From contig NZ_SPQK01000009.1 in assembly GCF_004570875.1 (NCBI RefSeq), positions 1-64,000 on the forward strand: DNA of 64,000 bases. Reading direction: 5' to 3'. The notes beneath the pieces were generated by a model. The model saw only the letters and a list, made by a program, of their open reading frames with translations. It searched no databases and was not told where the DNA came from. The DNA comes from Blastococcus sp. CT_GayMR16 (lineage in GTDB: Bacteria; Actinomycetota; Actinomycetes; Mycobacteriales; Geodermatophilaceae). Positions 34,834 to 56,757 of the stretch are shown here, piece after piece. Both the position numbers and the translations under genes were made by a program. Within the stretch, counting starts at the first letter, position 1, and every line of letters begins with the position of its first letter.

Positions 34834-34943
34834 TGTCGGTCGATCCGAGCGGGGCCCGGAGGGTCCCCGAGGAACGACGGGACCGCTGGGGCTCGACGCA
34901 GGTCGAGGGCCCCCTGGCCGCGGTGTCGGCCGGTAGGCCGACA
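34834..34943 (+). repeat. Structured three-hairpin repeat, family B, copy 1
   Basis: Domain 1: outer stem TCGATCC / GGAACGA (34840-34846 / 34871-34877, one mismatch), a 4-nt GAGC bulge, a 7-bp inner stem and a GGA loop. Domain 2: CTCGAC-GCAG-GTCGAG. Domain 3: perfect TGTCGGCC-GGTA-GGCCGACA (34924-34943). Other copies are at 56383-56487 and 56561-56755. It fills the gap between the desaturase and exonuclease III genes. Confidence 0.7.
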
Positions 34944-34951
34944 ATGTCTCA

Positions 34952-35752
34952 GTGCGCCTGGCCACCTGGAACGTGAACTCGATCCGCAGCCGAGCCGACC
35001 GGGTGGCCGCCTGGCTGGAGCGCAGCGACGTCGACGTCGTCGCGCTGCAGGAGACCAAGTGCCGCGACGACCAGTTCCCCGAGATGATGTTCAACGCCAT
35101 CGGGTACGAGGTCGCCCACGTCGGCCACTCGCAGTGGAACGGGGTCGCGATCCTGTCCCGGGTCGGCATCGAGGACGTCGAGATCGGCTTCCCGGGGATG
35201 CCGTCCTGGTCGTCGAAGGAGGGTCTGGACCCGGCACCCGAGGCGCGGGCCCTCGGCGCCACGTGCGGGGGCGTGCGGGTGTGGAGTCTCTACGTGCCGA
35301 ACGGCCGCACCCTGGCCGACCCGCATCTGCAGTACAAGCTCCAGTGGCTCGAGGCTCTGCGGACGACGGCCGCGGACTGGCTGGCCGCGGACCCGGCGGC
35401 CCAGGTCGCCCTGGTCGGCGACTGGAACATCGCCCCGGAGAACGACGACGTCTGGGACATCACCGTCTTCTCGCACTCGACGCACGTCTCCCCGCCCGAG
35501 CGAGCGGCGTTCCGCGGCGTCGTCGAGGCTGGCTACGCCGACGTCGTCCGTCCGTACACCCCCGGACCGGGCGTCTACACCTACTGGGACTACACGCAGC
35601 TGCGCTTCCCCCGTCGGGAGGGCATGCGGATCGACTTCGTGCTCGGCTCGCCTGCCCTCCAGGCCCGGGTGACCGGTGCCCGCATCGACCGCGAGGAGCG
35701 GAAGGGCAAGGGCGCCAGCGACCACGCGCCCGTCATCGTGGAACTGGCCTGA
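34952..35752 (+). CDS. xth: Exodeoxyribonuclease III
   Basis: 266 residues. AP endonuclease / 3'-5' exonuclease of base-excision repair. Motifs: ATWNVNSIRSR, LQETKCRDDQFP (catalytic Glu), LYVPNG, GDWNIAPENDDVWD (Asp/Asn), and the C-terminal RIDFVL and SDHAPV (catalytic His). The GTG lies 6 nt after GACAAT, which overlaps the end of the family B repeat. Confidence 0.95.
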   Translation: MRLATWNVNSIRSRADRVAAWLERSDVDVVALQETKCRDDQFPEMMFNAIGYEVAHVGHSQWNGVAILSRVGIEDVEIGFPGMPSWSSKEGLDPAPEARALGATCGGVRVWSLYVPNGRTLADPHLQYKLQWLEALRTTAADWLAADPAAQVALVGDWNIAPENDDVWDITVFSHSTHVSPPERAAFRGVVEAGYADVVRPYTPGPGVYTYWDYTQLRFPRREGMRIDFVLGSPALQARVTGARIDREERKGKGASDHAPVIVELA

Positions 35753-35794
35753 CGACTCCGGCAGGCCCTGAAGGGGGCCTTACACTGGCGTCCC

Positions 35795-36541
35795 GTGCTC
35801 GTCCTGCTGCCGCCCTCGGAGACCAAGGCGCCCGGCGGCGACGGTCCCCCGCTGGACCTCACCACCCTGTCCGCACCCGAGCTCACGCCGGTGCGCACCG
35901 AGCTCGCCGAGACGCTGGTCGAGCTGGCCGGTGACGTCCCGGCCGCCCGCACGGCACTGGGCCTGACCGCGCGTCAGGACGACGAGATCGCGCGCAACGC
36001 CGTGCTCTGGAACAGCCCGACGCTCCCGGCCCTGCGGCGCTACACCGGCGTGCTCTACGACGCCCTGGACATCGGCTCCATGACGCGGGCCCAGCGGGCT
36101 CGGGCCGGACGGCGGCTGTCGGTCGGGTCCGCGCTGTTCGGGCTGGTCCGCGGTGAGGACCGGATCCCGGCCTACCGGCTGTCCGCCGGCTCGGCGCTGC
36201 CCGGCCTCCCCACGCTCCGCGCGATCTGGCGCCCGGCGCTCTCCCCGGTGCTCGCCGCCGTCGACGAACTCGTCGTCGACCTGCGCAGCGGTTCCTATGC
36301 CGCGCTCGCCCCGGTGCCGGGCGCGGTCACGGTCGAGGTGCTCAGCGAGCGCCCGGACGGCACTCGGTCGGTGGTCAGCCATTTCAACAAGGCGCACAAG
36401 GGCCGGGTGGCCCGGTTGCTGGCCACGACGACCGGCGAACCGGCCGACGTGGTGCGACTCAGGAGCCTGCTGAGGCGCGCCGGGTTGCACGTGGAACAGA
36501 ACGGCGGCAGGGGGCTGGTCCTCGTCGTCCCTGCTCCCTGA
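35795..36541 (+). CDS. yaaA: YaaA-family peroxide-response protein
   Basis: 248 residues. YaaA/DUF328 proteins limit free iron and DNA damage during peroxide stress. Characteristic segments: the N-terminal VLLPPSETKAPGG, LYDALDIGSM, LRSGSYAAL and the C-terminal SHFNKAHKGRVARLLA. GTG start with TACACT 8 nt upstream. The 3' end contains a parS-like match at 36483-36498. Confidence 0.9.
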   Translation: MLVLLPPSETKAPGGDGPPLDLTTLSAPELTPVRTELAETLVELAGDVPAARTALGLTARQDDEIARNAVLWNSPTLPALRRYTGVLYDALDIGSMTRAQRARAGRRLSVGSALFGLVRGEDRIPAYRLSAGSALPGLPTLRAIWRPALSPVLAAVDELVVDLRSGSYAALAPVPGAVTVEVLSERPDGTRSVVSHFNKAHKGRVARLLATTTGEPADVVRLRSLLRRAGLHVEQNGGRGLVLVVPAP

Positions 36542-36573
36542 CTCCCTGACCGACCAGGATGGGAGTGACCTGC

Positions 36574-36603
36574 GTCCGGTTGGTTGCGCGCAACCGACCG
36601 GAC
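36574..36603. other. 30-bp near-perfect palindrome
   Basis: Arms of 14 bp, beginning GTCCGGTTGGTTGC, with a single G-T mismatch around a GC centre. It lies between yaaA and the multi-sensor phosphatase gene; a shorter ACTCCC / GGGAGT hairpin (36541-36566) precedes it. It could terminate yaaA or act as an operator for the phosphatase gene. Confidence 0.5.
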
Positions 36604-36692
36604 GTGACATAACTGACGCGAGCGTGCGGACTCCAGAGGCGGGGCCGGGGCGTCACTGCATCCCTGACAGAGCGCGGGGCAGAAGGGCTTCG

Positions 36693-39299
36693 GTGGAGAT
36701 CTCCACAGATCTGTCCGTGACCGATCGCCGTCATCCCGGCGAACGGGCGGCCGCAGCGCTGATCGCCGATCCGGAGCGGCTGGCGGAGGCCCGGCGGTTG
36801 CTGCCGACCCACGGCGACGCGCACGCGCTGGACCGGTTGGCCGAGCTCGCCGCGCGACTTCTGGGCACCACGGCGAGCCAGGTCGCGCTGCTGACCGACG
36901 TCCAGTTCCTGGCCGCGGGCGGCGGTCTGCCCCCAGGCCTGGTGGGCGGCGAGAGCCCGCTCAGCGAGTCGCTGTGCACGGTCACCGCGGCCGGCACCGG
37001 GGTGCTCGCCGTCACCGATGCGCGCCACGACCCACGGGTACGCGACCTGCCACCGGTGGTCTCCGGCCAGGTCGGCGCCTACCTCGGCGTTCCCCTGGCC
37101 GGGCGGAACGGCCAGGTGATCGGCGCCCTCTGCGTGTTCGACCCCGACCCTCGCGACTGGTCCGACACCGACATCGCGACCGTCCGTCAACTGGCCGAGT
37201 CGTCGGTCACGCAGCTCGAGCTCTCGGCAACGGTCCGCGAGTACGAGAGCGACCGGATGCGCTGGGGGCTGGCGATCGACTCGGCCGGCATCGGCACGTT
37301 CGACCTGGACGTGGTCACCGGGCGACTCACCTGGGACGACCGCCTGCTCACCATGTTCGGCTACGAGGACACGGCGTTCGAGGAGACCATCGACGCGTTC
37401 AACGCGCGGGTGCACCCCGACGACGTCCCGAGGGTGACCGAGGCCATGGCGGCCTGCATCGACACCTGCGGGGAGTTCGAGGCGCAGTACCGCATCATCC
37501 GCCTCGACGGCGAGACCCGGTGGGTGCACGCCCGGGGGCGGGCGATCGCCGATGCCGGCGGCCGCGCCGTCCGGTTCCTCGGCGCGGCCTACGACACCAC
37601 CGGCGAGCGCGAGGGGGCGGCGCGCGTCACCCGGGTGCTGGAGGCGATGCCGGCGGGCTTCTACAGCCTGGACCGCGAATGGCGGTTCACCCATGTCAAC
37701 GCCGAGGCGGAACGGCTGCTCGGCCGCACGCGGGAGCAACTCCTCGGGCGCGTGCTCTGGGACGACTGGCCCGCGGCGATCAACAGCATCTTCGAGGACA
37801 GCTACCGCACCGCCGTCCGGACCGGCGTGCCCGTCTCCTTCGACGCGTACTACCCCGCCCCGCTGGACGGCTGGTTCGAGCTGCGGGCCTGGCCGAGCCC
37901 CGACGGGTTGTCGGTGTACTTCACCGAGGTCACCGAGCGCCGCCGGATGCAGGATCAGGCCGAGCGTTCGGCACGCCGGCTGGCGGTCCTGGCCCAGGTG
38001 AGCGCCGAGCTGGCCGGCACCCTGGATGCACCCACTGCCGCGGCCCACCTGCCCCGACTCGTCGTCCCCACCCTCGCGGACTTCGCGGTCGTCACCCTGG
38101 TCGATCCGGACGGGCGCCCTCGCGACGTCGGCTCGTGGCACTCCGACCCGGCGTCCCGGCGCCTGCTCGAGCGATACGCCTCCGTTCGGCTGGAGTCCAT
38201 GCCTGCCGTCTCACCGGTGGCCCGGGCCCTGATCAGCGGCGAGCCGATCCGCGAGCACGGCCGCACCGTGATCAGACTGCTCCCGTCCGGCGAGGCCCAG
38301 GACCTGCTCAGCCTCCTGGGGCCCGATTCGGCTGTCGTGCTCCCGATGCGCGGTCGCGGCCGCATCCTGGGCCTGCTCACCCTCTACTTCGCTCCCGGGT
38401 CGACGGTCGTCGACGAGGACCTCGCGACGGCACAGGACGTCGCCGACCGCGCCGGCCTGGCGCTGGACAACGCCCGCCTCTACAACGCTCAGCAGCAGCT
38501 CGCCGAGGGGCTGCAGCGCAGCCTGCTCACCGAGCCGCCTCAGCCCGACCACGGCGAGATCGCCGTCCGCTACCTGCCCGCGGCCGAGGCCGCGCGGGTG
38601 GGCGGCGACTGGTACGACGCCTTCCTGCAGCCCGGCGGCGCCACGATGCTCGTGATCGGCGACGTCGTCGGCCACGACACCGAGGCGGCCGCCGCCATGG
38701 GCCAGCTGCGCGGGCTGCTCCGAGGGATCGCGACCTACAGCGACGCGGGGCCGGCCGAGGTGCTCCGCGGGCTCGACACGTCCATGACGACGCTGCAGAC
38801 CACGACCCTGGCCACCGCCGCCGTCGCGCGCTTCGAGCAGACACCCGAGGAGCGCGAGCGGGGCATCACCCGGATGCGGTGGGCAAACGCGGGCCACCTG
38901 CCGCCGCTGGTGGTCAACCCGGACGGGAGTGTCGCCGAGCTCGCCTCGTGGCGGGGTGATCTGCTCCTGGGCGTCGACCACGAGACCCAGCGCCGGGAAT
39001 CGGTGGTCACCCTCGACCGCGGAGCGACCGTGCTGCTCTACACCGACGGACTCGTGGAGCGGCGCGACGCCGATCTGGACGCCGGCCTGGTGCGGCTCCG
39101 GGACACGTTGATCGAGCTCGCCGACCGGCCGCTGGAGGAGCTGCTCGACGAGGTGCTCGAGCGGCTCGTGCAGGGCCGCCCGGAGGACGACGTCGCGCTC
39201 GTCGCCGTCCGGCTGCACCGGCAGGACCTGCCCCGGCCCGCGGAAGCCGGGCCGAACGACGTGCCACCCACCGTGCCGGACGAGCCCGCGACCACCTGA
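36693..39299 (+). CDS. Multi-sensor SpoIIE/PP2C serine phosphatase
   Basis: 868 residues. Domain order, approximate: GAF (25-160, VGAYLGVPLAGRNGQVIGAL), PAS with PAC (185-310, GTFDLDVVTGRLTWDDRLLTMF, RWVHARGRAI), PAS (310-425, MPAGFYSLDREWRFTHVNAEAE), GAF (430-592), PP2C (600-840). Metal-binding motifs of the phosphatase are intact: VGGDWYDAF, VIGDVVGHD, ATAAVARFE and EDDVALVAV. No transmembrane segment. Such RsbU/RsbP-type enzymes dephosphorylate anti-anti-sigma factors in response to sensory input. The GTG at 36693 has an AGAAGGG site. Two shorter relatives are at 52-56 kb. Confidence 0.9.
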   Translation: MEISTDLSVTDRRHPGERAAAALIADPERLAEARRLLPTHGDAHALDRLAELAARLLGTTASQVALLTDVQFLAAGGGLPPGLVGGESPLSESLCTVTAAGTGVLAVTDARHDPRVRDLPPVVSGQVGAYLGVPLAGRNGQVIGALCVFDPDPRDWSDTDIATVRQLAESSVTQLELSATVREYESDRMRWGLAIDSAGIGTFDLDVVTGRLTWDDRLLTMFGYEDTAFEETIDAFNARVHPDDVPRVTEAMAACIDTCGEFEAQYRIIRLDGETRWVHARGRAIADAGGRAVRFLGAAYDTTGEREGAARVTRVLEAMPAGFYSLDREWRFTHVNAEAERLLGRTREQLLGRVLWDDWPAAINSIFEDSYRTAVRTGVPVSFDAYYPAPLDGWFELRAWPSPDGLSVYFTEVTERRRMQDQAERSARRLAVLAQVSAELAGTLDAPTAAAHLPRLVVPTLADFAVVTLVDPDGRPRDVGSWHSDPASRRLLERYASVRLESMPAVSPVARALISGEPIREHGRTVIRLLPSGEAQDLLSLLGPDSAVVLPMRGRGRILGLLTLYFAPGSTVVDEDLATAQDVADRAGLALDNARLYNAQQQLAEGLQRSLLTEPPQPDHGEIAVRYLPAAEAARVGGDWYDAFLQPGGATMLVIGDVVGHDTEAAAAMGQLRGLLRGIATYSDAGPAEVLRGLDTSMTTLQTTTLATAAVARFEQTPEERERGITRMRWANAGHLPPLVVNPDGSVAELASWRGDLLLGVDHETQRRESVVTLDRGATVLLYTDGLVERRDADLDAGLVRLRDTLIELADRPLEELLDEVLERLVQGRPEDDVALVAVRLHRQDLPRPAEAGPNDVPPTVPDEPATT

Positions 39300-39322
39300 G
39301 ACCTTGTTCCGATGTGCGGTTC

Positions 39323-39380
39323 GGCCCCCTGCGGGGTCCGGGCGCGAGCGTGCGAGCGGCGGGGGCAGGGGGACCTTCCT
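39323..39380. repeat. Dispersed nested-hairpin repeat, family A, copy 2
   Basis: Outer stem CCCCCTGC / GCAGGGGG around a GAGCGTGCGA loop region, the same layout as 4711-4770. Base changes in the outer stem keep pairing. It lies between the phosphatase and the convergent helicase gene, where it may also act as a terminator. Confidence 0.6.
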
Positions 39381-41065
39381 CAGGTGCGGTCGCGGCGGAC
39401 CGTGGCCTTGCGTCCCTTGATCATGGTGGCGCGCAGCGCCTGGACGACCTCGTCGGCCGCTGACTCCGGCACCTCCACCAGCGCGAACCGCTGGTGGATC
39501 TCGATCGAGCCGATGTCGCGGCCCTTGAGGCCGGTCTCCCCGGTGATCGCCCCGACGAGATCGCCCGGGCGGATCCCGGCGTCCCGGCCCGCGCCGACGA
39601 ACACGCGGGCGGCCGCGCCGCCCGTGACCCGCCGCGGCGGCCGGTCGTCCCGGCTGCCGGCGCTGCGGCCGGCGGGCCCGCGTCCGCCGTCCTTGTCCTG
39701 CCGGAAGGCGACCTGCGGGATCTCCTCGTCGTCGTCGGAGCCTCCCCCGGCCTCGTGTGCGAGCTTCACCGCGGCCAGGGCGACCTCCATGAGGTCGAAC
39801 TCGTCGGTGAGGGTCTCGACGACTCCGCGGAACCGGTCGAGGTCGTCGGTCAGCAGGCTCTCGCGGAGCGCAGCCTGGGTGAGCTGCAGTCGCCGGTTCC
39901 GCAGATCGGCCACGGTCGGCACCGTCTGGACGGCGATGGGCGCACCGGCGACCCGCTCGATCGTCTTGAGCATCCGGTGCTCGCGCGGCTCGGCCAGGGT
40001 GATCGCGACGCCCTCGCGGCCCGCGCGGCCGACCCGGCCGATGCGGTGCACATAGGACTCGGGCGCCGAGGGGACGTCGTAGTTGACGACGTGCGTGAGC
40101 TGCTCGATGTCCAGGCCGCGCGCGGCGACGTCGGTGGCGACCAGCAGCTCCGCGATCCCGCCGCGGACTCGGCCCATCACCCGGTCGCGCTGCTCCTGGC
40201 TCATGCCGCCGTGCAGGGCCTCGGCGCGGTAGCCGCGGCCGTTGAGGGTCTCGGTGAGGGAGTCGACCTCCTCGCGGGTGCGGCAGAAGACGATCGCCGC
40301 GGCGGGCGCCTCGATGTCGAGGATCCGGCCGAGCGCTGCGGGCTTCGCCCCCCGGGGGACGACGTAGGCGGTCTGCCGGACCCGGGGCGCCTCCCCGGCG
40401 ACCGCCTTCTCGCGGCCGATGGCGATGCGGACCGGGTCGTTGAGGTGCCGGCGGGCGAGGGAATCCAGCCGCCGCGGCATGGTCGCGGAGAACAGCACGG
40501 TCTGCCGGGTGTCCGGTGTCTCGCCGAGGATCGCCTCGAGGTCCTCGGCGAAGCCCATGTCGAGCATCTCGTCGGCTTCGTCGAGGACGACGGTGGCGAC
40601 GTCCCCGAGCCGCAGGCTGCCGCGGTTCAGCAGGTCCAGGGCCCGGCCGGGAGTCGCGACGACGACGTCGACGCCGGACTCCAGGCTGCGCAGCTGGCGG
40701 ACGATCGGGGCGCCCCCGTAGACCGGGAGCACCCGGGCGCCGAGGTCCTTGCCGTAGCGGTGCAGCGCCTCCGACACCTGGACGGCGAGCTCGCGGGTCG
40801 GCACGAGGACCAGCGCGATCGGTGCGCGCTCGGACCGGTGCGCGGTCAGCTGCTGGAGGATCGGCAGCGCGAACGCAGCCGTCTTGCCGGTGCCGGTGGC
40901 CGCCTGTCCCAGCAGGTCGCGCCCGGCCACCAGCGGCGGGATCGCCTCCTGCTGGATCGGTGTCGGCTCCTCGTACCCGAGGGCGGACAGCGCCTGCAGC
41001 AGCTCCGGCCGCAGACCGAGACCGTCGAAAGTGGCGCCCTGCTCGTCGTCGTCCATCGGGGTCAT
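39380..41065 (-). CDS. deaD: DEAD-box RNA helicase (DeaD/CsdA-like)
   Basis: 561 residues. Q motif EPTPIQQEAIPPL, motif I AATGTGKT, Ia PTRELAVQ, Ib TPGRALD, motif II DEAD, motif III SAT, and the C-terminal VATDVAARGLD and HRIGRVGRAG are all present. The C-terminal domain (about 480-555: ARVFVGAGRDAGIRPGDLVG, IEIHQRFALVEVP) is a DbpA-type RNA-binding domain, as in cold-shock helicases that help ribosome assembly and mRNA decay. The start has GGGGAAC upstream. Confidence 0.94.
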   Translation of the reverse strand: MTPMDDDEQGATFDGLGLRPELLQALSALGYEEPTPIQQEAIPPLVAGRDLLGQAATGTGKTAAFALPILQQLTAHRSERAPIALVLVPTRELAVQVSEALHRYGKDLGARVLPVYGGAPIVRQLRSLESGVDVVVATPGRALDLLNRGSLRLGDVATVVLDEADEMLDMGFAEDLEAILGETPDTRQTVLFSATMPRRLDSLARRHLNDPVRIAIGREKAVAGEAPRVRQTAYVVPRGAKPAALGRILDIEAPAAAIVFCRTREEVDSLTETLNGRGYRAEALHGGMSQEQRDRVMGRVRGGIAELLVATDVAARGLDIEQLTHVVNYDVPSAPESYVHRIGRVGRAGREGVAITLAEPREHRMLKTIERVAGAPIAVQTVPTVADLRNRRLQLTQAALRESLLTDDLDRFRGVVETLTDEFDLMEVALAAVKLAHEAGGGSDDDEEIPQVAFRQDKDGGRGPAGRSAGSRDDRPPRRVTGGAAARVFVGAGRDAGIRPGDLVGAITGETGLKGRDIGSIEIHQRFALVEVPESAADEVVQALRATMIKGRKATVRRDRT

Positions 41066-41163
41066 CGTTCCCCGGCCGCCCCTGCCGCGCGCGGCCGGGG
41101 GCTATCGGCGGGCGGGGGAAAGCGCGGTGGGGCGGGCGGGGGAAAGCATGGCAGGCTCCACCG

Positions 41164-42576
41164 GTGGACGACGACCTCTTCTTCCGGCCGGCGACGGAGC
41201 TCGCCGGGATGCTCCGTGCGCGCGAGATCTCGGCGCGCGAGCTGATGGACGCGCACCTCGACCGGATCGACCGGCTGAACCCCGATCTCAACGCCGTCGT
41301 GACCCTCGACGCCGACGGCGCCCGGGCAGCAGCCGACGCCGCCGACGCGGCCCTCGCGGCCGGTGATTCAGTGGGCCCCCTGCACGGGCTGCCCGTCGCA
41401 CACAAGGACACGCACGCCACCGGCGGCATGCGGACGACGTGGGGGTCGCCGCTGCACACCGACACGGTGCCGCTGCGGGACGAGCTGATCGTGGCCCGCT
41501 ACAAGGCTGCCGGCGCCCTGCGGGTCGGGAAGACCAACGTGCCGGAGTTCGCAGCCGGATCGCACACGTACAACACGGTCTTCGGGGCGTCGCACAACCC
41601 GTACCGGCACGGCCTCTCCGTCGGCGGCTCGTCGGGTGGGTCGGCCGCCGCGCTGGCGGCGGGCCTCGTGCCACTGGCCGACGGCAGCGACATGGGCGGC
41701 TCGCTGCGCAACCCGGCGGCGTTCTGCAACGTCGTCGGTCTCCGGCCCACGCCGGGCCGGGTGCCGACGTGGCCGGCCGCGATGGGGTGGTCGCAGCTGT
41801 CCGTGCAGGGGCCCATGGGACGCACGGTCGCCGACGTCGCGCTCCAGCTGTCGGTGCTCGCCGGGGCGGACCCCCGGGTGCCGATCTCGCTGGCCGACGA
41901 CCCCGCGGAGTTCGCCTCCCCCCTGCCGTCGTCGCTGGCCGGGCTGCGGGTGGCGTGGGCGCCCGACCTCGGTGGCCGGGTGACGGTCGACCCGGCGATC
42001 ACCTCGGTGCTGGCGTCGTCCGCGGCCGTGTTCGCCGACCTGGGCGCGACCGTGGCGGACGACTGCCCCGACCTGTCCGGCGCCGACGACGTGTTCGGGA
42101 CGCTGCGGGCCTGGCTGTTCGAGTCGACCTTCGGCGAGCTCGGGCGGCGCAATCCCGGCAAGGTCAAGGAGTCGATCCGGTGGAACGCCGAGCTGGGCGC
42201 CACGCTCAGCGGCGCCGACATCGCCCGCGCCGAGATCGAGCACACGAAGCTGTTCGAGCGGATGGTGGCGTTCTTCGAGCGCTACGACGTCCTGCTGGCA
42301 CCGACGACCCAGGTGCTGCCGTTCCCGGTCGAGCTGGAGTACCCGACCGAGATCGGGGGAGTGCCGCAGGAGAACTACCTGGAGTGGATGCGGTCCTGCA
42401 CGGTCATCTCGGCGACCGGCTGCCCCGCGCTGTCGGTGCCGGGCGGGTTCACGCCGGACGGCCTGCCGGTGGGGCTGCAGATCATCGGGGCACCGCGCGC
42501 GGACCGCCGCATCCTCGAGGTCGGCCACGCGTTCGAGCAGGCCACCCGGTTCGGCCAGCGCCGCCCTGCCCTCTGA
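41164..42576 (+). CDS. Amidase (amidase-signature family)
   Basis: 470 residues. Ser-cisSer-Lys hydrolase: HGLPVAHKDTHATGG contains the catalytic lysine, and SVGGSSGGSAAALAAGLVPLADGSDMGGS contains the Gly/Ser-rich signature with the cis-Ser and nucleophilic Ser. LLAPTTQVLPFP and SATGCPALSVPGGF complete the fold. Substrate unknown. GTG at 41164 lies 6 nt after CAGGCT, a weak -10. Three hairpins follow the stop. Confidence 0.92.
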   Translation: MDDDLFFRPATELAGMLRAREISARELMDAHLDRIDRLNPDLNAVVTLDADGARAAADAADAALAAGDSVGPLHGLPVAHKDTHATGGMRTTWGSPLHTDTVPLRDELIVARYKAAGALRVGKTNVPEFAAGSHTYNTVFGASHNPYRHGLSVGGSSGGSAAALAAGLVPLADGSDMGGSLRNPAAFCNVVGLRPTPGRVPTWPAAMGWSQLSVQGPMGRTVADVALQLSVLAGADPRVPISLADDPAEFASPLPSSLAGLRVAWAPDLGGRVTVDPAITSVLASSAAVFADLGATVADDCPDLSGADDVFGTLRAWLFESTFGELGRRNPGKVKESIRWNAELGATLSGADIARAEIEHTKLFERMVAFFERYDVLLAPTTQVLPFPVELEYPTEIGGVPQENYLEWMRSCTVISATGCPALSVPGGFTPDGLPVGLQIIGAPRADRRILEVGHAFEQATRFGQRRPAL

Positions 42577-42639
42577 GGCGTTCTACGCCTCTCTAGCGGA
42601 GGAGTTAGAGAGCCTCAGACCGGTATAGCGGCGCTGAGG
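42575..42639. terminator. Cluster of three hairpins between convergent genes
   Basis: GAGGCG-TTCTA-CGCCTC (42575-42591, overlapping the amidase stop), CTCTCTA-N10-TAGAGAG (42589-42612) and CCTCAG-N15-CTGAGG (42613-42639). The first two are mutually exclusive by 3 bp. They lie between the convergent amidase and glutamate dehydrogenase genes. Confidence 0.65.
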
Positions 42640-42643
42640 GGGC

Positions 42644-47617: not shown

Positions 47618-47707
47618 GCCCCTGACGCTACTGCGACATGGGGGGCCCGTCACTGCGACGCGGCGAGCGTTACCGACCCGTGGCCCCGGTCGCCCCGGCC
47701 TGCGCGA

Positions 47708-48076: not shown

Positions 48077-48156
48077 GCCGGCGACGCTAGCGGTGCGCGG
48101 CATCCCGATGGGGGATCTGGCCGCTTCCTGCAGGTGTCCGGCGTCCGCCCTGGACG

Positions 48157-48186
48157 TTGGCAGATGCCGGACGACGCTCGCAGAAT
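48157..48186 (+). promoter_or_regulatory. Promoter of the PH-domain gene
   Basis: TTGGCA (48157-48162), an 18-bp spacer and CAGAAT (48181-48186), with the GTG start 6 nt further on. This would give a leaderless mRNA. Confidence 0.5.
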
Positions 48187-48192
48187 GCCGTC

Positions 48193-48663: not shown

Positions 48664-48717
48664 GTCGTTCTACCGATGTCTACGGCCCTTGCTAGACGAC
48701 CCCATACGGTGCTCGAC

Positions 48718-49923: not shown

Positions 49924-49935
49924 GCGAGGAGCGTC

Positions 49936-50685
49936 ATGCCGACCTGGCTCGAGGCCGGGCTCTGGGGGCTGCTCGGCGGCGGCGCGCTGGTCATCGGCGC
50001 GCTGATCGCCTGGTTCACCCCTGTCCCGCCCAAGGTGGTGGCGTCGGTGATGGCCTTCGGCTCCGGCGTGCTGATCTCCGCCGTCGCCTTCGACCTGATG
50101 GAGGAGGCCGCGCGGACCGGCGGCCTCGCCGCCACCGCGCTCGGCTTCCTCGGCGGCGCGGTGGTGTACCTGGCCGCGAACCTGACGCTCGCCCGCCGGG
50201 GCGCCCGGCACCGGAAGCGGTCGGGGAACCAGCAGCCGTCGGAGGACGAGCAGGCGGGCAGCGGTGCCGCCATCGCGATCGGGGCGCTGCTGGACGGCGT
50301 CCCCGAGTCCGTGGTGCTGGGCCTCGGCCTGATCGGCGGCGGGTCGGTGAGCCTGTCGGTGCTCGCCGCCGTCTTCATCTCCAACGTCCCCGAGGGGCTC
50401 TCGAGCGCGGCCGGGATGAAGCGCAGCGGGCGCTCGGCCCGGTACGTCTTCGGCGTCTGGGGCGGGATCGCCGCGGCCAGCGGGCTGGCGGCGCTGCTCG
50501 GCTACGTCCTCCTGGGCGACGCGTCTCCGCAGCTCGAGGCGGTGATCACAGCGGTCGCCGCGGGCGCGATCCTCACGATGATCGCCGACACCATGATCCC
50601 GGAGGCGTTCGAGAACACGCACGCCTGGACCGGTCTCATCACGACCGTCGGGTTCCTGACCGCCTTCGCGATCAGCCTGGCCTGA
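49936..50685 (+). CDS. ZIP-family divalent metal transporter
   Basis: 249 residues, about eight membrane segments. ZIP helix motifs are visible: ALLDGVPESVVLG, FISNVPEGLSSAAGM and MIADTMIPEAFENTH, which carry the metal-binding polar residues. The cytoplasmic loop after helix 3 is basic (RRGARHRKRSG). Probably imports zinc or iron. The neighbouring insertion sequence entered at its stop codon without altering the protein. Confidence 0.9.
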   Translation: MPTWLEAGLWGLLGGGALVIGALIAWFTPVPPKVVASVMAFGSGVLISAVAFDLMEEAARTGGLAATALGFLGGAVVYLAANLTLARRGARHRKRSGNQQPSEDEQAGSGAAIAIGALLDGVPESVVLGLGLIGGGSVSLSVLAAVFISNVPEGLSSAAGMKRSGRSARYVFGVWGGIAAASGLAALLGYVLLGDASPQLEAVITAVAAGAILTMIADTMIPEAFENTHAWTGLITTVGFLTAFAISLA

Positions 50686-50691
50686 CCCCTC

Positions 50692-52125
50692 GGTAGCGTC
50701 AGCCAGCGTTGAACTTCGCCGTGGTGATGTTGAAGGCGATGGCGTTGGGTGGTCGTAGGGACTGACGCAGTGTGGTCCAGGCCGGGTGGTTGGTCATCCG
50801 GGCCAGCTGCACCGTGATGAGGTCGCGCAGGCCGTCGACGGACCAGCGGCTGCCGCCGATGTCGGTGCGGGCGTTGAGTTCGCGCATCACCCGCTCGAGG
50901 ACGCCGGAGCCCAGCTCGGGTCCGCCGAGGTGGGCGAGGCGGGCCCGGAGCACGGGGCGCAGGCAGGTGAAGACCTGCTCGCGGGCGCCGGTGAGCACCT
51001 CTCCGGCGGCGTGGTGGCCCTCGGCGGTGATCGTGGCGGTGAAGGCGTCGTAGGCGGCCAGCGCCTGGCCGTGGGTGAGGTGTTCCCGGGCGACCCGGCG
51101 CAGCAGGGCAACCAACTCGGTGCGCTTGGCATTCGACCACGGGTGGGGGGCCTTGTCGGCATACAGCGCCCAGCGCAGCGCCCGGGGCAGGTGCCACCAG
51201 CAGCGCTGGATCGGCACGTCGGGCCAGACCGTCTCGGCCAGTGTGGTGATCGCGATCTCGCCGTCGACGACCACGACCGCGGGCGCGTCGAGGGCGCGCA
51301 GCTGGGCGGCCATCGCCGACCACGGCTGCTGCAGGGTCAGGCCCAGCAGCACCGTTCCGGCCGACCGGCGGCGCCGCGGGCCACCCCTGCTGGTCAGGCC
51401 CAGGGCGAGGTTGCAGTCCACGCCCAGCCGCCGCCGGCCGGCGCGCATCCCGGTGCCATCGAGGATCACCACATCGGCACCGGTCGGGGCGCCGGGCACC
51501 TCCGGCCGCCCAACCCCGTCCAGCAGCGGCGCCAGGTCGGCCACCGCCGAGTGCGCCCGCCCGGCCGAACCGGGCACCCCGAAGGAGGCGGCGACCGCAC
51601 CGGCCCGGGCGAAGGACATCTGGCTGGCCAGCTCGGCCAGCTCGATCATCAGCCGGTCGGTGCGCCGCTTGCCCGACAGATCCAGCATCAGCAGCAGCGG
51701 GGCGAACACCCGGCCACACGAGCGGCAGCCCACGTTGGCCAGCCGGATCTGCACGATGCCGGCCGCGGTATCGAACCGGCGCAGTCGGGTGCGTTTGCCC
51801 TTGCGGGCGAAGTCGTCCATCACCCCGCAGCCGGGACAGCCGAACGGCGCCGGCAGATCCCGCACCGGCAGCCATTTGGGGCCGCAGACCTGGTCGATCA
51901 GCCGGTCCTGCAGGTCTTCCAGGGCGGCCGCCAGCGCCGCTGCGGGCAGCTCCTCGCGCATCGCCACCGCCCACGCCTCCAGCTGCGACCAGGCCAGCGA
52001 CTCACCGAGCTCGGGCAGCTCCGCGGTCAAGGCAAGGGTAGTGAGCGGCACGGCGATGACTCCTCGGATCGGGTGCCATCACCCCACAGCAAGATCCGAG
52101 AAGTTCAACGCTGCGCCACGCTACC
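50692..52125. mobile_element. Complete insertion sequence, 1434 bp
   Basis: 26-bp terminal inverted repeats at 50692-50717 and 52100-52125 match at 22 positions: GGTAGCGT, a 4-base variable block, then CAGCGTTGAACTTC. The element is flanked by direct repeats GACCCCTC (50684-50691 and 52126-52133), an 8-bp target duplication. One transposase ORF on the minus strand fills it, with its stop inside the left terminal repeat. Size, repeats and duplication fit the Mutator-like IS256/ISKra4/ISLre2 superfamily. Confidence 0.92.
50699..52051 (-). CDS. Mutator-like DDE transposase
   Basis: 450 residues. N-terminal zinc-binding CPGCG (72-76) and CRSCG (109-113), then a DDE core: VVILDGTGM (Asp198), VVVVDGEIAI (Asp263), the C-(2)-H segment QRCWWHLPRAL (284-287) typical of Mutator-like enzymes, and a helix ELGSGVLERVMRELNAR offering the catalytic Glu (386 or 391). 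GTG start. The frame is complete, so the element may still be active. Confidence 0.9.
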   Translation of the reverse strand: MPLTTLALTAELPELGESLAWSQLEAWAVAMREELPAAALAAALEDLQDRLIDQVCGPKWLPVRDLPAPFGCPGCGVMDDFARKGKRTRLRRFDTAAGIVQIRLANVGCRSCGRVFAPLLLMLDLSGKRRTDRLMIELAELASQMSFARAGAVAASFGVPGSAGRAHSAVADLAPLLDGVGRPEVPGAPTGADVVILDGTGMRAGRRRLGVDCNLALGLTSRGGPRRRRSAGTVLLGLTLQQPWSAMAAQLRALDAPAVVVVDGEIAITTLAETVWPDVPIQRCWWHLPRALRWALYADKAPHPWSNAKRTELVALLRRVAREHLTHGQALAAYDAFTATITAEGHHAAGEVLTGAREQVFTCLRPVLRARLAHLGGPELGSGVLERVMRELNARTDIGGSRWSVDGLRDLITVQLARMTNHPAWTTLRQSLRPPNAIAFNITTAKFNAG

Positions 52126-52131
52126 GACCCC

Positions 52132-53904
52132 TCAGACGGGGCGGGGGACGGCGGGCGGCACGCGCACCGGGCCGGCCTCGACCGGGCGGTCCTCGTGCAC
52201 GGGATGCGCCCGGACGGCGAGCACCGCCACGTCGTCCTCGACGCCCTCTCCCAGCATCTCGGCGAGGAGACGGTCGCAGAGGGCGTCGAGCGGGAGATCT
52301 GCCGAGCGCTCGAGGATCTCGCGGACCTGCGCACGGCCCTCGTCCAGCGGGACGCCGCGCCGCTCGAACAGCCCGTCGGTGAACAGCAGCAGCGTGCTGT
52401 CCTCCGGCAGCGTGGCCATGCCGTCGAGTCGGCGGCCGAGCCAGCCGATGCCCAGCGGCGGGCCGATCGGCGCGGAGAGGTCACCGACGGTGCCGTCGGC
52501 CAGCAGCAGCATCGGGTCCGGATGGCCGGCCGAGGCCCAGCGGAGCCGCCGCAGGCCGTGGGCGCGATCGGCCGGATCCTGCTCCACGCGGCACACGAGG
52601 GCGGTCGCCATCGCGGGCACGGCGAGTCCGACGAGCGCGTGGTCGACGCGACGCAGTACCTCGGCCGGCTCCTCCAGCCGGTCGAAGGCGATCCCCCGCA
52701 CCAGCGTCTTGACCTGGCCCATGGCGGCGGCGGCCTCGATGTCGTGGCCCATCACGTCCCCGATGACGAGGACGGTGTCGCCGTCGGGCTGCAGGAAGGC
52801 GTCGTACCAGTCCCCGCCGATCGACACCCCCTGCGTGGCCGGCCGGTAGCGGACGGCGAGCTCCAGCTGGTCGGGCTGGACCGGCGGGGAGAGCAGGCTC
52901 AGCTGGAGCCGCTCGGCCACCTGCTGGCTGGCCGAGGCGAGCCGGGCGTTGTCCAGGGCGAGCGCCGCGCGCCGGGAGGCGATCTCCGCGGTCCGGAGCT
53001 CGGAGGCGGTGTGCGGACCCCGCTCCGGCCCGTTGACCAGGGTGAGCGCGCCGAAGACCTCACCCCGGGCGATGAGCGGAAAGGCCGCGATGGCCGTGGG
53101 TCGCAGCGGTTCGAGGGCCTTGCGGGCCTCGGCGCTGGCCACCATCACCGCGGCGTGCTCGGGCGTGAAGTCGGGGATGATCACCGGGCGCTGATTGCGC
53201 AGCAGTTGAGGCACGGGCGCGGTGGCGAGATTCGTCGCGACCCGGAGGTCGGCGTACCGGTGCATGGCGCCGGCCAACGCCGGGTCGCGGTGCGCGCGGC
53301 CGACGTCGCGCCGGGTGCCGTCGGGATCCACCACGCTGACCAGGCACCAGTCGGTGAGCAGCGGGACGACGAGGTGCGCGAAGCGGTCGACCGCCTCGTC
53401 GGTGTCGATCGTCGAGGTCATCGCCAGGTTGATGTCGCCGAGGAGCATCAGATGTCGCCCGGCCTCCTCCGCCCGGGCGGCGGCGTCCGCGGCCGCGGCG
53501 GCCGCCGCCTCGCGTTCGGCGACCGCCGCCGCGCGCTCCTCCTCGGTGCGGCGCCGTTGGGTGACGTCGTCGTAGGTGACCACCAACCCCCCGTCGGTGC
53601 GGAAGGCGTCCACCTGGAACCAGATCTGCAGCGGGTCGAACCAGGCCTCGAAGCTGGCCGGCTCACCCGTCGCGGCCACGCGCCGGTAGTTCAGCTCGAA
53701 GGGGCTGTCGACCGCCTCGGGGAACTCCGCCCAGATCTCCCGGCCGACCAGTGCGTCGACCGTCCGGTCCAGCAGCGCCGCGCCGGCGGGGTTCATGTAG
53801 CTGAACCGCCAGTCGTCGTCGAGGACGAACAGCGGCCGCTCCATGCCCTCGACGGCCTGCAGCAGCAGGTCGGCGGGCAGCGGAGCCGCGTCGTCCCCGG
53901 TCAT
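52132..53904 (-). CDS. PAS-GAF-PP2C serine phosphatase
   Basis: 590 residues. PAS (about 12-115, MERPLFVLDDDWRFSYMNPAGA), an alanine/glutamate-rich coiled segment (about 120-150), GAF (150-310), PP2C/SpoIIE (320-560) with IGGDWYDAF, VIGDVMGHD, LLLFTDGLFERR and EDDVAVLAV intact. Probably an RsbU-like anti-anti-sigma phosphatase. ATG at 53904; a GTG at 53913 is 9 nt upstream. Divergent from another phosphatase of the same design; its stop codon lies in the 8-bp target duplication of the insertion sequence. Confidence 0.88.
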   Translation of the reverse strand: MTGDDAAPLPADLLLQAVEGMERPLFVLDDDWRFSYMNPAGAALLDRTVDALVGREIWAEFPEAVDSPFELNYRRVAATGEPASFEAWFDPLQIWFQVDAFRTDGGLVVTYDDVTQRRRTEEERAAAVAEREAAAAAAADAAARAEEAGRHLMLLGDINLAMTSTIDTDEAVDRFAHLVVPLLTDWCLVSVVDPDGTRRDVGRAHRDPALAGAMHRYADLRVATNLATAPVPQLLRNQRPVIIPDFTPEHAAVMVASAEARKALEPLRPTAIAAFPLIARGEVFGALTLVNGPERGPHTASELRTAEIASRRAALALDNARLASASQQVAERLQLSLLSPPVQPDQLELAVRYRPATQGVSIGGDWYDAFLQPDGDTVLVIGDVMGHDIEAAAAMGQVKTLVRGIAFDRLEEPAEVLRRVDHALVGLAVPAMATALVCRVEQDPADRAHGLRRLRWASAGHPDPMLLLADGTVGDLSAPIGPPLGIGWLGRRLDGMATLPEDSTLLLFTDGLFERRGVPLDEGRAQVREILERSADLPLDALCDRLLAEMLGEGVEDDVAVLAVRAHPVHEDRPVEAGPVRVPPAVPRPV

Positions 53905-54139
53905 GTCGATCACTCTGCCCCATCAGCACCGCCCCGCCGGGAGCCCTGACCGATCGTGAACGCAAGGTCACCCGTTCGCGGGGGGCGGACTCGCGACGCG
54001 GCCGCTCCGTGACTCCTTGGCAGCGGCCGGTGGGATCGACAGAATCGCCGTGTCCGTGACCGCCCGGTTCCGCTCGGTCGGCGCGGACGCTCCAGCAGCG
54101 GGGCCACCAGCGCGGACGGCCGGACGTGGGGGCATCGCA

Positions 54140-55846
54140 GTGGGCGAGATCGATCGGTGCCTGGGCAGCATCCCCGCCCCGCGGGGCGAGCTCCACAGCG
54201 CCGACCTGGTGGGGTTCCTCGAGGCGATGCCCGCAGCCTTCTGCCTGCTCGACACCGAGTGGCGCTTCCGCTACGTCAACGCCGAGGCCGAACGGCTGAT
54301 GAACCGCGCCCGCGACGAGGTCGTCGGCGAATCGCTGTGGACCGCGTTCCCCCACCTCTCCGGCAGCCTCGTCGAGGAGAACTGCCGGGCCGCCGTCGCC
54401 ACGGGACGGGCGATGTCCTTCGAGACCGCCCCCCACGGATCGCCGGAGGGCTGGGTCGAGGTGCGCGTGTGGCCGGGGCCCGACGGCCTCGCCGTCTACG
54501 TCCTCGACGCCACCGACCGGCGAGCCGCCGAGGACAGGGTGCGCCGCGCCACCGCGCGGACCGCCCTGCTCTCCCATGTCAGCGCAGAGCTCGCCGGGGA
54601 GGTGGACACCGAGGCGGCCCTCAGCCGGCTTGCCCAGCTGGTCGTGCCGGTCCTGACCGACGGCTGCATCGTCACCGTCATCGACCGCGAGGGCCGCGCC
54701 CGCGACGTCGGGTCCTGGCACGCGGACCCCGACCGGCGGCCGCTCATGCAGCGGTACACGCTCGTTCGGATGGACTCGCTGCCCACCGCATCCCCCGTGG
54801 CACAGGCGCTGCACGCCGGGACGTCGGTGACGCAGCCGGTGGACGCCGTCCTGCGCCTCATGCGGCCCGGCCCGTCGCGGGACCTGCTCGTGGCCCTCCA
54901 CCCGGCGACGGCCGTGGTGCTGCCGCTGACGGCCGAGGCGCGCACGGTCGGCGTCCTCACCCTGTATCTCGATGCGGGGCGCACCCTCAGCGAGGAGGAC
55001 CTGCAGACCGCCCACCAGGTCGCCGCCGAGGCAGGCCGGGCCGTCGTCCGGGTGCACCGGCAGAGTCAGCAGGCGCAGCTGGCCGAGGCGCTCCAGCGCA
55101 GCCTGCTCACCGATCCGCCGGCGACGGGGGCGGCAGAGATCGTGGTGCGGTACGTCCCTGCCGCCGAGGCCGCCCGCGTGGGGGGCGACTGGTACGACGC
55201 CTTCCGGCATCGCGACGGGACGCCCGTTCTCGTCATCGGCGACGTCGTGGGCCACGACACCGCGGCCGCGGCGGCGATGGGCCAGCTGCGGGCGCTGCTC
55301 CGGGGGATCGCCCACTACAGCGGGGCCGGCCCGGCCGAGGTGCTCCGTGGCCTGGACGAGGCCATCGCGGACATGCACACCGACACACTCGCAACGGCGG
55401 CCGTCGCCCAGCTCGAGCCCGCCGTGAAGGACGGGAGCTCCCGTCGGCTCCGCTGGGCCAATGCCGGTCACCCGCCGCCGATCCTGGTCGCCCCGGACGG
55501 CTCCGCCACCGTCCTCGGCGGCCCGATCGGCGACCTGATGCTCGGGGTGGACTGCTCCGCCGAGCGCCCGGAGTCGGTGATCGACGTCCTGCCGGGCGCC
55601 ACCGTCCTGCTCTACACCGACGGACTGATCGAGCGGCGCGGAAGCACCCTGGACGAGGGGATGGCCCGACTCGTCGAGCATCTCGGCACGCTGGCCGGTG
55701 AGCCGCTCGAGGACTTCTGCGACGCGCTCCTCGAGCGCATGGTGCAGGGCACACCCCAGGACGACGTCGCCATCGTCGCCGTCCGACTGGCCGATCTCGA
55801 GCCGAATTACCCCCAAGAGTCAGGAAGCGGCCTGGGTCACGGTTGA
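54140..55846 (+). CDS. PAS-GAF-PP2C serine phosphatase
   Basis: 568 residues. PAS (about 20-130, MPAAFCLLDTEWRFRYVNAEAERL), GAF-like (140-310, with DVGSWHADPDRRPLMQRYTLVRM), PP2C (320-550) with VGGDWYDAF, VIGDVVGHD, LLYTDGLIERR and QDDVAIVAV. Very similar to the C-terminal half of the 36.7-kb phosphatase, including the GSWH sentence, so the two are paralogues. The GTG at 54140 was chosen; the frame is open from 54017. An RsbW-like kinase gene follows 65 bp downstream. Confidence 0.87.
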   Translation: MGEIDRCLGSIPAPRGELHSADLVGFLEAMPAAFCLLDTEWRFRYVNAEAERLMNRARDEVVGESLWTAFPHLSGSLVEENCRAAVATGRAMSFETAPHGSPEGWVEVRVWPGPDGLAVYVLDATDRRAAEDRVRRATARTALLSHVSAELAGEVDTEAALSRLAQLVVPVLTDGCIVTVIDREGRARDVGSWHADPDRRPLMQRYTLVRMDSLPTASPVAQALHAGTSVTQPVDAVLRLMRPGPSRDLLVALHPATAVVLPLTAEARTVGVLTLYLDAGRTLSEEDLQTAHQVAAEAGRAVVRVHRQSQQAQLAEALQRSLLTDPPATGAAEIVVRYVPAAEAARVGGDWYDAFRHRDGTPVLVIGDVVGHDTAAAAAMGQLRALLRGIAHYSGAGPAEVLRGLDEAIADMHTDTLATAAVAQLEPAVKDGSSRRLRWANAGHPPPILVAPDGSATVLGGPIGDLMLGVDCSAERPESVIDVLPGATVLLYTDGLIERRGSTLDEGMARLVEHLGTLAGEPLEDFCDALLERMVQGTPQDDVAIVAVRLADLEPNYPQESGSGLGHG

Positions 55847-55911
55847 CCCGCGGCCTGACTGGGCAACCCCGGTGTGGCGGAATTCCGGCGAATCGGGGGG
55901 CGACGACGACC

Positions 55912-56370
55912 ATGGGACGGCTTGCGTGGCCACTGCGCCCGCTACCGGACGGCCGGGGCGAGGTGTGGCGCTGGGATCTCGGCGCGGTCGCCGAACTGCC
56001 TGCAGCCCGAGCCGGACTCCGCGATCGCCTCGGTGGCGTGGGGTTCCAGCCGGACGGGGACAACACCGCGGGCGAGAGCCTGATCCTGGCCTTCGACGAA
56101 CTCGCGTCCAACGCGCTGCGGCACGGGGCGTCCCCCGTCGTCGCGACGGTCGTGGCCGGAAGTGGCGGATGGCTGCTCGACGTCAGCGACCGCGCGGCCG
56201 AGACGATGCCCGCCCCGGCCGTGGACCGTGATCCCGCCAAGGGCGGGATGGGTCTGCACCTCGTCGCCCGGATGTCCGTGGCGCACGGCTGGTACGTCGA
56301 CGGCGGCCACAAGCACGTCTGGGCCTGCCTGCCGACCACGGTCGACGACCGCGAGCCCGCCCTGGCCTAG
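55912..56370 (+). CDS. RsbW-like ATP-binding protein
   Basis: 152 residues with a single GHKL/HATPase domain: N-box AFDELASNALRHG and G-box GGMGLHLVARMS. Anti-sigma-type serine kinases of this size act opposite PP2C phosphatases on STAS-domain proteins, so with the adjacent phosphatase this gene may form a switch. Its STAS partner is not in the window. A strong hairpin terminator follows at 56499-56538. Confidence 0.85.
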   Translation: MGRLAWPLRPLPDGRGEVWRWDLGAVAELPAARAGLRDRLGGVGFQPDGDNTAGESLILAFDELASNALRHGASPVVATVVAGSGGWLLDVSDRAAETMPAPAVDRDPAKGGMGLHLVARMSVAHGWYVDGGHKHVWACLPTTVDDREPALA

Positions 56371-56382
56371 CAGGCGCCGGTT

Positions 56383-56487
56383 TCGCTCGTCCCGAGTGGG
56401 CCCCGGAGGGGTCCGCATAGGGACGACGGTGGTGCTCAGCGCAGAGGGGAACGTCTCCTGGCCGCGCTGTCGTCCGGTAGGACGACC
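56383..56487 (+). repeat. Structured three-hairpin repeat, family B, copy 2
   Basis: Domain 1: outer stem TCGTCCC / GGGACGA (56387-56393 / 56420-56426), GAGT bulge, inner stem GGGCCCC / GGGGTCC with GGA loop. Domain 2 around GGGGAACG. Domain 3: GTCGTCC-GGTA-GGACGAC (56469-56486). Starts 12 bp after the RsbW-like gene. Confidence 0.7.
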
Positions 56488-56498
56488 ATGACATTGCG

Positions 56499-56538
56499 CC
56501 CGGGGCGGCGGGAACCGAAGTTCCAGCGCCGCCCCGGG
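56499..56538. terminator. Strong hairpin with CGAA loop
   Basis: 12-bp stem CCCGGGGCGGCG / CGCCGCCCCGGG (56499-56510 / 56527-56538), continued by GGAAC-CGAA-GTTCC after a 2-nt bulge: 17 bp of pairing in all. Probably terminates the RsbW-like transcript. No U-tract. Confidence 0.8.
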
Positions 56539-56560
56539 GTGTCTGTCGTTCCCTGAGTGC

Positions 56561-56755
56561 TGTCGCGACGAGTGGAGGCCCGAAGGGTCTCCTGGATGTC
56601 GTGACGATGGTGCTCAGCTCAGCAGGGGAACGGCTCCTGGCCGTAGTTCTGTCGCGACGAGTGGAGGCCCGAAGGGTCTCCGGGATGTCGTGACGGTGGT
56701 GCTCAGCTCAGGAGGGGAACGGCTCCTGGCCGCGGTGTCGTCCGGAGGACGACAG
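56561..56755 (+). repeat. Structured repeat, family B, copies 3 and 4 in tandem
   Basis: Two units start at 56561 and 56650 (89-bp period). Each domain 1 has outer stem GTCGCGAC / GTCGTGAC, GAGT bulge, inner 8-bp stem GGAGGCCC / GGGTCTCC and GAA loop. Copy 4 has domain 2 CAGGAG / CTCCTG (56709-56728) and domain 3 TGTCGTCC-GGA-GGACGACA (56736-56754). Copy 3 lacks domain 3. The array ends 3 bp from the stop of the convergent CheX-like gene. With 56383-56487 and the terminator it accounts for the whole 387-bp gap 56371-56757. Confidence 0.7.
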
Positions 56756-56757
56756 AG

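Follow-up and report, generated by a model that had tools for sequence, protein, structure and literature searches.

Small modular repeats with a conserved fold at gene 3′ ends in Geodermatophilaceae

The repeat copies at two loci of Blastococcus sp. CT_GayMR16

The stretch of DNA analysed here (the window) covers 64,000 nucleotides, positions 1 to 64,000 of contig NZ_SPQK01000009.1 from Blastococcus sp. CT_GayMR16 (family Geodermatophilaceae). Four copies of a small repeat were found on its plus strand, one at a fatty-acid desaturase locus and three at an RsbW-like locus. Based on the comparison of many copies, the repeat unit is about 110 nt long and consists of hairpin A, region B and hairpin C with a tail. 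All four copies were seen in the sequence where the original prediction, made from the letters alone, had placed them. They were also matched in the own-genome search by R1, a covariance model from 21 copies, which had a poor automatic structure and was used only to find copies.

Copy 1 (34839–34948) is a full A-B-C unit located between genes matching FA_desaturase_2 and Exo_endo_phos. Its outer stem (34839–34846/34871–34878) carries one A/A mismatch and is followed by the bulge GAGC (34847–34850) and the inner stem (34851–34857/34861–34867), which is closed by a GGA loop. Region B occupies about 34888–34923, and hairpin C (34924–34931/34936–34943) has a GGTA loop and the tail ATGTC. The R1 match spans 34834–34944 with 73.8 bits, and the folding of this copy gives a z-score of only −1.67.

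The RsbW-like protein scored 26.2 bits for HATPase_c_2, just below the Pfam cut-off of 27.4. Copy 2 (56387–56492) is again a full unit with an outer stem (56387–56393/56420–56426), an inner stem with a GGA loop (56398–56404/56408–56414), region B (about 56433–56468) and hairpin C with a GGTA loop (56469–56475/56480–56486); it was matched by R1 at 56381–56488 with 99.2 bits, and its RNA fold has a z-score of −3.41 (56380–56492). Copies 3 and 4 form a tandem pair with a period of 89 nt and 94% identity over 89 nt. The first unit, copy 3 (56562–56648; R1 match 56557–56648, 68.2 bits), comprises only A and B, with the outer stem at 56562–56569/56598–56605 and the inner stem at 56574–56581/56585–56592, closed by a GAA loop. 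The capped second unit, copy 4 (56651–56757; R1 match 56646–56756, 106.6 bits), includes an outer stem (56651–56658/56687–56694), an inner stem with a GAA loop (56663–56670/56674–56681), region B (about 56699–56735) and hairpin C with a GGA loop (56736–56743/56747–56754). The latter is followed by the tail GAGTTA (56755–56760), the last three bases of which, TTA, are the TAA stop of a predicted opposite-strand gene (56758–57240).

Hairpin A is built as the original prediction had described it, with outer and inner stems, a GAGC or GAGT bulge and a GNA loop. In the last hairpin, the change from G-C to T-A was also found (TGTCGGCC/GGCCGACA in copy 1, TGTCGTCC/GGACGACA in copy 4). Three hairpins had been assigned to every copy; hairpin C is present in three of the four, copy 3 (predicted at 56561–56649) does without it, and a single cap closes copy 4. 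Likewise, the outer-stem pairing is as described in copies 2–4, and copy 1 has the A/A mismatch.

Copies 2 and 3 are separated by a long, GC-rich hairpin resembling a terminator (approximately 56493–56545), and three congeners have similar hairpins at this locus (L075, L077 and L079). Neither intrinsic terminators (a hairpin with a T-tract) nor promoter-like sites were found on either strand in the scanned region with copies 2–4 (56340–56800).

Modular architecture and the folded strand

Across the family, hairpin A is composed of an outer stem, commonly GTCGYGCC/GGCGCGAC, a GAGY bulge, an inner stem (GGGGCCC/GGGTCCC and variants) and a GNA loop. Region B (GGCTC ... GGGRACGGCTCCTGGCCGCGG) is the stretch of the unit most conserved as sequence. 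Hairpin C, TGTCGTCC-GGA-GGACGACA with many variants, has an 8-bp stem and a loop that is mostly GGA and sometimes GGTA; a few caps carry other letters at the CC-loop-GG positions. The tail reads RTGTCAYNG. It is kept also in 62 arrays without an opposing stop within 12 nt and therefore belongs to the element. No conserved sequence was present upstream of the outer stem when the flanks of the copies were compared. Compared by eye, the left end (the outer stem, often GTCGYGCC) and the right end (RTGTCAYNG) are not related by inversion, as the terminal inverted repeats of a miniature inverted-repeat transposable element would be.

The repeat is modular. Among 152 arrays, 136 had one A-B unit and 16 had two to five; the A-B units stand in tandem and the array is usually closed by one C, giving (AB)n-C. 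At locus L115, an 84-nt AB unit is repeated 4.1 times with a 100% match, and at another locus of the Blastococcus genome itself (L240, 1366–1706) A alone (49 nt) occurs three times and C alone (34 nt) five times. Hence AB, A alone and C alone can each multiply. The suggestion that the copies did not arise by simple duplication holds for the dispersed ones, but tandem duplication of modules clearly occurs. We also considered orphan C hairpins as a separate family of repetitive extragenic palindromes (REPs) and rejected this: 15 caps with the TGTC tail had no close upstream B core, and 12 of these 15 directly follow another cap.

The copies for the covariation, placement and history sets were chosen by a match to the B core (3–4 substitutions allowed), and the conservation of B is thus partly built in. 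A first census of hairpin C (2777 hits) used too loose a pattern and was replaced by stricter sets. In the set of 158 capped copies, CC-loop-GG was required of hairpin C, which is hence constant there by construction; a C(GNA)G loop and at least four of seven Watson–Crick inner pairs were required of hairpin A, so that inner-stem pairing is partly by construction as well. Positions 3–8 of hairpin C and the outer stem were free of such selection.

Watson–Crick pairs were present at positions 3, 4, 5 and 6 of hairpin C in 150, 140, 149 and 146 of the 158 capped copies, the shuffled-partner means being 71, 92, 78 and 75. The outer stems of 185 copies had 6.19 of 8 Watson–Crick pairs with their own partner strand versus 5.28 with partners from other copies (top mean of 20 shuffles, 5.38), the best register being allowed for real and shuffled partners alike. 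Against a tree-simulated null, six column pairs were significant at E ≤ 0.033 in 43 ungapped copies; hairpin C contains three of them and the inner stem two, and the sixth joins the bulge to the opposite internal loop. In the curated alignment A5 (23 named pairs), which keeps 31 of these 43 copies after nine gap-shifted copies and three with another outer-stem type were dropped and which thus leans towards structure, 92.8% of the cells were paired versus 80.6% after shuffling, and none of 500 shuffles reached this value. Sliding the alignment lowered the pairing to 40–54%. Double changes were found in 14 pairs of A5, and the paired cells by helix amounted to 80.6, 100 and 98.8%. Selection on a folded strand, as originally proposed from four copies, is therefore supported by the 158 capped copies, the tree-aware test and the curated alignment; the covariation is significant in this larger sample and goes far past what chance would give.

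Region B is a different case. The stretch around GGGGAACG, where a second hairpin had been predicted, is plainly conserved as sequence, but no covarying pair was found there in the 43 ungapped copies. The stretch is nearly invariant, which makes this weak evidence either way; the hairpin in B was rejected on it all the same. A candidate pseudoknot between the GAGY bulge and GCTC was paired in 90.3% of cells (one of 500 shuffles was equally high); it had only two double-change cells, and its covariation score was no better than shuffled.

The original prediction spoke of a folded RNA or a cruciform. A cruciform would fold on both strands. Non-Watson–Crick cells, however, were G.T far more often than A.C, with counts of 193 and 7 for the inner stem, 23 and 2 for hairpin C, and 53 and 10 for the outer stem. 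A single inherited wobble accounts for much of the difference in the inner stem; counted along the tree, changes into G.T and A.C were 9 and 0 in the inner stem, 8 and 1 in hairpin C, and 20 and 11 in the outer stem (a single register and noisy). Thus, selection appears to keep the fold of a single strand, A-B-C, and RNA and single-stranded DNA fit this alike. C-G-closed GNA loops make very stable mini-hairpins in DNA. Folding with DNA parameters gave the plus strand of three copies an advantage of 2–6 kcal/mol, and hairpin A was not formed in the best DNA fold of copy 1.

Distribution, gene context and turnover

The number of candidates scored per genome was 63 in a set of 61 genomes, 9 in a phylum set and 34 in a set of 112 family genomes; consequently, copy counts are minimum values and absences are tentative. 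Many further copies were found. Using copy 1 as a BLAST query, 31 matches at E ≤ 0.001, itself included, were obtained in its own genome (4.52 Mb, 47 contigs). R1 gave 63 matches there at E ≤ 0.1 and 60 at E ≤ 0.001, a few of which overlap within one array. R1 matched 32 of the 61 genomes, namely 32 of 37 Geodermatophilaceae and none of the 24 belonging to the order's other families. A second model, R2, matched 101 of the 112 Geodermatophilaceae genomes and nine of 12 genera. The 11 genomes without a match were nine fragmented assemblies from three genera (g6, g9 and g11) and the genomes G466 and G502. These two are fairly complete, had no match among the 34 candidates scored in each, and belong to genera in which other members carry the repeat; the absence may mean loss.

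When R2 was run on 396 genomes of the phylum, some of which are also in the 61-genome set, only the genome of the window was matched (0 of 395 others, in a shallow search of nine candidates per genome). The exact B-core pattern was present in at least 112 stretches of a species-level collection, and all of the 80 listed record titles belonged to Blastococcus, Geodermatophilus, Modestobacter, Klenkia or other Geodermatophilaceae. An identical copy carried by loci L025 and L153 (107.7 bits in both) was merged as one. Based on these data, the repeats are confined to Geodermatophilaceae within the material examined.

Rfam gave nothing above its curated thresholds on the element in the window or anywhere in ten further loci with copies. 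Plasmids and phages had no match to one copy used as the query, and IMG/VR viral contigs had no exact B-core match. Carriage by plasmids, phages or viruses was rejected on these absent matches. The repeat therefore corresponds to no described element in these sources, insertion-sequence databases lying outside the search.

Gene context was assigned for the 152 arrays that a home-made gene finder showed to be flanked by predicted genes on either side, 14 arrays at locus edges and three inside predicted genes being left out. The bias towards gene 3′ ends expected from the original prediction is present: 82 arrays lie between convergent genes, 52 in the order stop-C′B′A′-start, 14 in the order stop-ABC-start and only four between divergent genes. 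A position on the coding strand behind plus-strand genes, as first proposed, is half of the pattern; in 134 of the 152 arrays the C end points towards the 3′ end of a gene on the opposite strand. The ratio of 52 to 14 in tandem-gene settings was made up of 16:4 in the own genome (p 0.012), 32:6 in named records and 4:4 in relatives, a small set without bias; related loci make the pooled p of 2.8 × 10⁻⁶ too small.

The distance from the C end to the opposing stop was 3–7 nt in 53 of the 134 arrays, within 12 nt in 90 and beyond 100 nt in 11. For co-directional genes next to the A end, the stop lay at 3–7 nt in 14 of 96. The tail was recognisable in 74 of the 134 arrays, and in 27 of these its TCA or TTA is the exact stop of the opposing gene; a stop supplied by the element reads TGACA from the gene's side. 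Convergent gaps without the element had a median of 21 in the own genome and 62 in the others, and gaps with it 133 and 155, longer by about one element. Element-free gaps are thus already short, and the tight fit needs no special targeting. Stop-codon targeting as its sole cause was rejected on this ground.

With regard to replication, 38 copies were co-directional and 34 opposite (p 0.72) in four genomes, each having a long chromosomal contig, which indicates no bias. This test used 72 of 86 matches (11 on contig C2 of G012 and three array members were dropped), took the origin from dnaA and assumed the terminus to be opposite. In one single-contig genome, the DnaA match was split between two overlapping open frames (G009:C1:3230490-3232198), probably a frameshift or an assembly error.

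At the desaturase locus, cut out from 14 of 16 congeners (the own genome included), we found copies in plus or minus orientation or in both, remnants of copies, or no copy. The RsbW-like locus, cut out from 12 of 16, contained full or fragmentary copies, hairpin C by itself, or nothing of the element. Two congeners have a minus-orientation copy abutting the desaturase gene: the gene of L059 lacks its usual stop and ends with the TGA of the element, and that of L058 has a TAG before the element. On the minus strand of the window, a match to Rfam ASdes (a tuberculosis small RNA, RF01781; 68 bits, cut-off 40) lies antisense to the fatty-acid desaturase gene at 34184–34251; it may reflect conservation of the desaturase coding sequence rather than an RNA.

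Among 122 non-independent pairs of flank-matched sites, 98 had the same orientation and 24 were inverted. In the stem cells of the 98 same-orientation pairs, 181 double changes kept pairing versus 11 that broke it, and single changes kept it in 124 cases versus 60. Flank-matched elements were only slightly more alike than random pairs (medians 0.79 and 0.76), and thus some may be separate insertions. Among 39 dispersed copies of the own genome, the best identity was 85% and the median 73%, so that the family looks old, with local tandem growth continuing.

Relation to known repeats and possible origin

Mycobacterial interspersed repetitive units (MIRUs) of Mycobacterium tuberculosis are tandem intergenic units whose ends overlap the stop codon of a flanking gene. 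The present repeat shares this actinobacterial setting, tandem arrangement and stop overlap, the likeness being one of description rather than of compared sequence. A conserved fold of several hairpins is not known from MIRUs.

The BOX elements of Streptococcus pneumoniae have the order boxA-boxB(n)-boxC, are small with a predicted RNA fold, are over-represented between convergent genes, and new insertions of them are now rare (PMC3049150). In architecture only, the Geodermatophilaceae repeat is similar in its small size, fold, placement between convergent genes and variable number of modules within an array with distinct end modules. The differences are that boxB is the varying part there, whereas AB, A alone and C alone multiply here, that the C ends supply stop codons in Geodermatophilaceae, and that the host phylum is another one.

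REPs and REPINs (GTAG- and CGTC-tagged) are short hairpins in many copies, mostly between unidirectional or convergent genes, and the CGTC type, which has an unpaired CGTC, TGTC or CCTC tag, an 8–9 bp stem, a 4–5 nt loop and a CCA-like tail, has no dedicated transposase (PMC3733652). In the part of that source available, no actinobacterial host is given for tagged REPs, and untagged REP-like sequences are mentioned in M. tuberculosis (PMC3733652). Our repeat is like them in its hairpins, 3′-end placement and many copies and, as with the CGTC REPs, no dedicated transposase was found. However, it is about 110 nt long, with two supported hairpins and a conserved linker, compared with a palindrome of 20–40 bp; its hairpin C loop usually has 3 nt, and tag and tail differ. 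By eye, hairpin C, with an 8-bp stem, a GGA or GGTA loop and an RTGTCA tail, has its TGTC inside the stem rather than as an unpaired tag.

Correia/NEMIS, ERIC, RUP and CIR are structured non-autonomous repeats of about 100–200 bp (PMC2229807), and the family resembles them in these respects. Terminal inverted repeats and target duplications are recorded for Correia, ERIC and RUP (PMC2229807); the two ends of the present repeat, by contrast, do not form inverted repeats. CIR, with two arms and a linker and listed without inverted repeats (PMC2229807), is by description the nearest in shape. By analogy, the family is thus best seen as similar in kind to BOX, REP and MIRU, with an architecture of its own. 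As far as the searches show, it is undescribed: there was no match in Rfam or in the open literature, the scope of which did not extend to subscription papers and preprints. The available portions of papers on Geodermatophilaceae genomes (PMC9686282, PMC3035280), on Kineococcus (PMC2587704) and on a Bordetella repeat (PMC3110155) contain no description of it.

Based on the above results, the reading we favour, with moderate confidence, is that of small interspersed modular structured repeats that spread long ago and survived where their own stop limits harm. The repeat is dispersed, folds on one strand, grows by tandem modules, sits at gene 3′ ends and supplies stop codons. The folded A-B-C strand may have been recognised by an enzyme that spread the repeat, most of the dispersal would be ancient, and copies would persist where an insertion bringing its own stop codon does little harm. 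Tandem growth of modules would fit slippage at the hairpins. With less weight, hairpins A and C might also shape the 3′ ends of neighbouring transcripts, as an exonuclease barrier or a weak terminator.

Several results weigh against this reading. No autonomous partner element was found. A comparison of two loci among congeners yielded no alignment of empty with filled intergenic regions from which a target-site duplication could be read, and no pair was close enough to reveal an insertion boundary. The 39 dispersed copies compared include no near-identical ones, and present-day mobility is therefore not supported. Movement as single strands at the replication fork was rejected by orientation, which leaves such a route without support. 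In the tree-aware test, the outer stem had no significant pair among the 43 ungapped copies. In addition, the same orientation of most flank-matched pairs would also fit a functional, vertically inherited element.

This last point leads to the alternative that survives best, a structured RNA or cis element beneficial to the host. Transcribed A-B-C hairpins would stop or process antisense RNA towards the C-side gene, or protect 3′ ends. We regard this as possible, though distinctly less probable than an old spread. It agrees with the folding of only one strand, the large excess of pairing-keeping double changes at matched sites, the rarity of divergent placement with the C end at opposing 3′ ends, and a full copy at the RsbW-like locus in nine genomes of several genera. 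It is opposed by the lack of terminator- or promoter-like sites around copies 2–4, by the turnover of presence and orientation between congeners, by elements at matched sites being only slightly more alike than random pairs and by the two fairly complete genomes without a match. Furthermore, in 52 of 66 tandem settings the transcript of the neighbour carries the opposite strand, a poor fit to a simple RNA of the 3′ untranslated region. A version in which the repeat is a domesticated RNA module across Geodermatophilaceae, transcribed from A to C, ending or disarming convergent and antisense transcription, with helices kept by compensatory change and the C end serving as the neighbour's stop, is slightly more doubtful.

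A DNA-architecture or protein-binding site, as proposed for bacterial interspersed mosaic elements (BIMEs), with B bound as a duplex and the hairpins incidental or forming a cruciform, seems unlikely. It would account for B being the most conserved as sequence without a covarying pair, and for the copies lying mainly between convergent genes. Nevertheless, a cruciform would fold both strands, contrary to the excess of G.T over A.C, and the B conservation is in part a product of how the copies were chosen. We hold an element of the REP/REPIN type moved by an IS200/IS605 tyrosine transposase (REP-associated tyrosine transposase, RAYT) to be very improbable. Its hairpin units, 3′-end placement and high copy number are like those of REPs (PMC3733652), yet Y1_Tnp (PF01797) was found in none of 37 family genomes, the own included, with a control search positive in 5 of 14 reference genomes, and no orientation bias with replication was seen; a RAYT/REP origin was rejected on the absence of PF01797. 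In GC-rich DNA, which folds easily, hairpins arising by chance or ordinary segmental duplication would suit the modest fold of copy 1 but are next to negligible given the shuffle, slide and tree-aware controls and the 24 genomes of other families without a match.

The old-spread reading and its rivals concern a family of structured repeats that is large, sharply delimited and rich in natural changes that preserve pairing, in a group for which none was found described. Its covariance model, which can be rebuilt from alignments A1 and A5, makes the family searchable. It allows two origins of dispersed repeats, a parasite kept by its mobiliser and an RNA part kept by the host, to be weighed against each other, and its separately multiplying hairpin modules are a clue to how BOX-like repeats grow.

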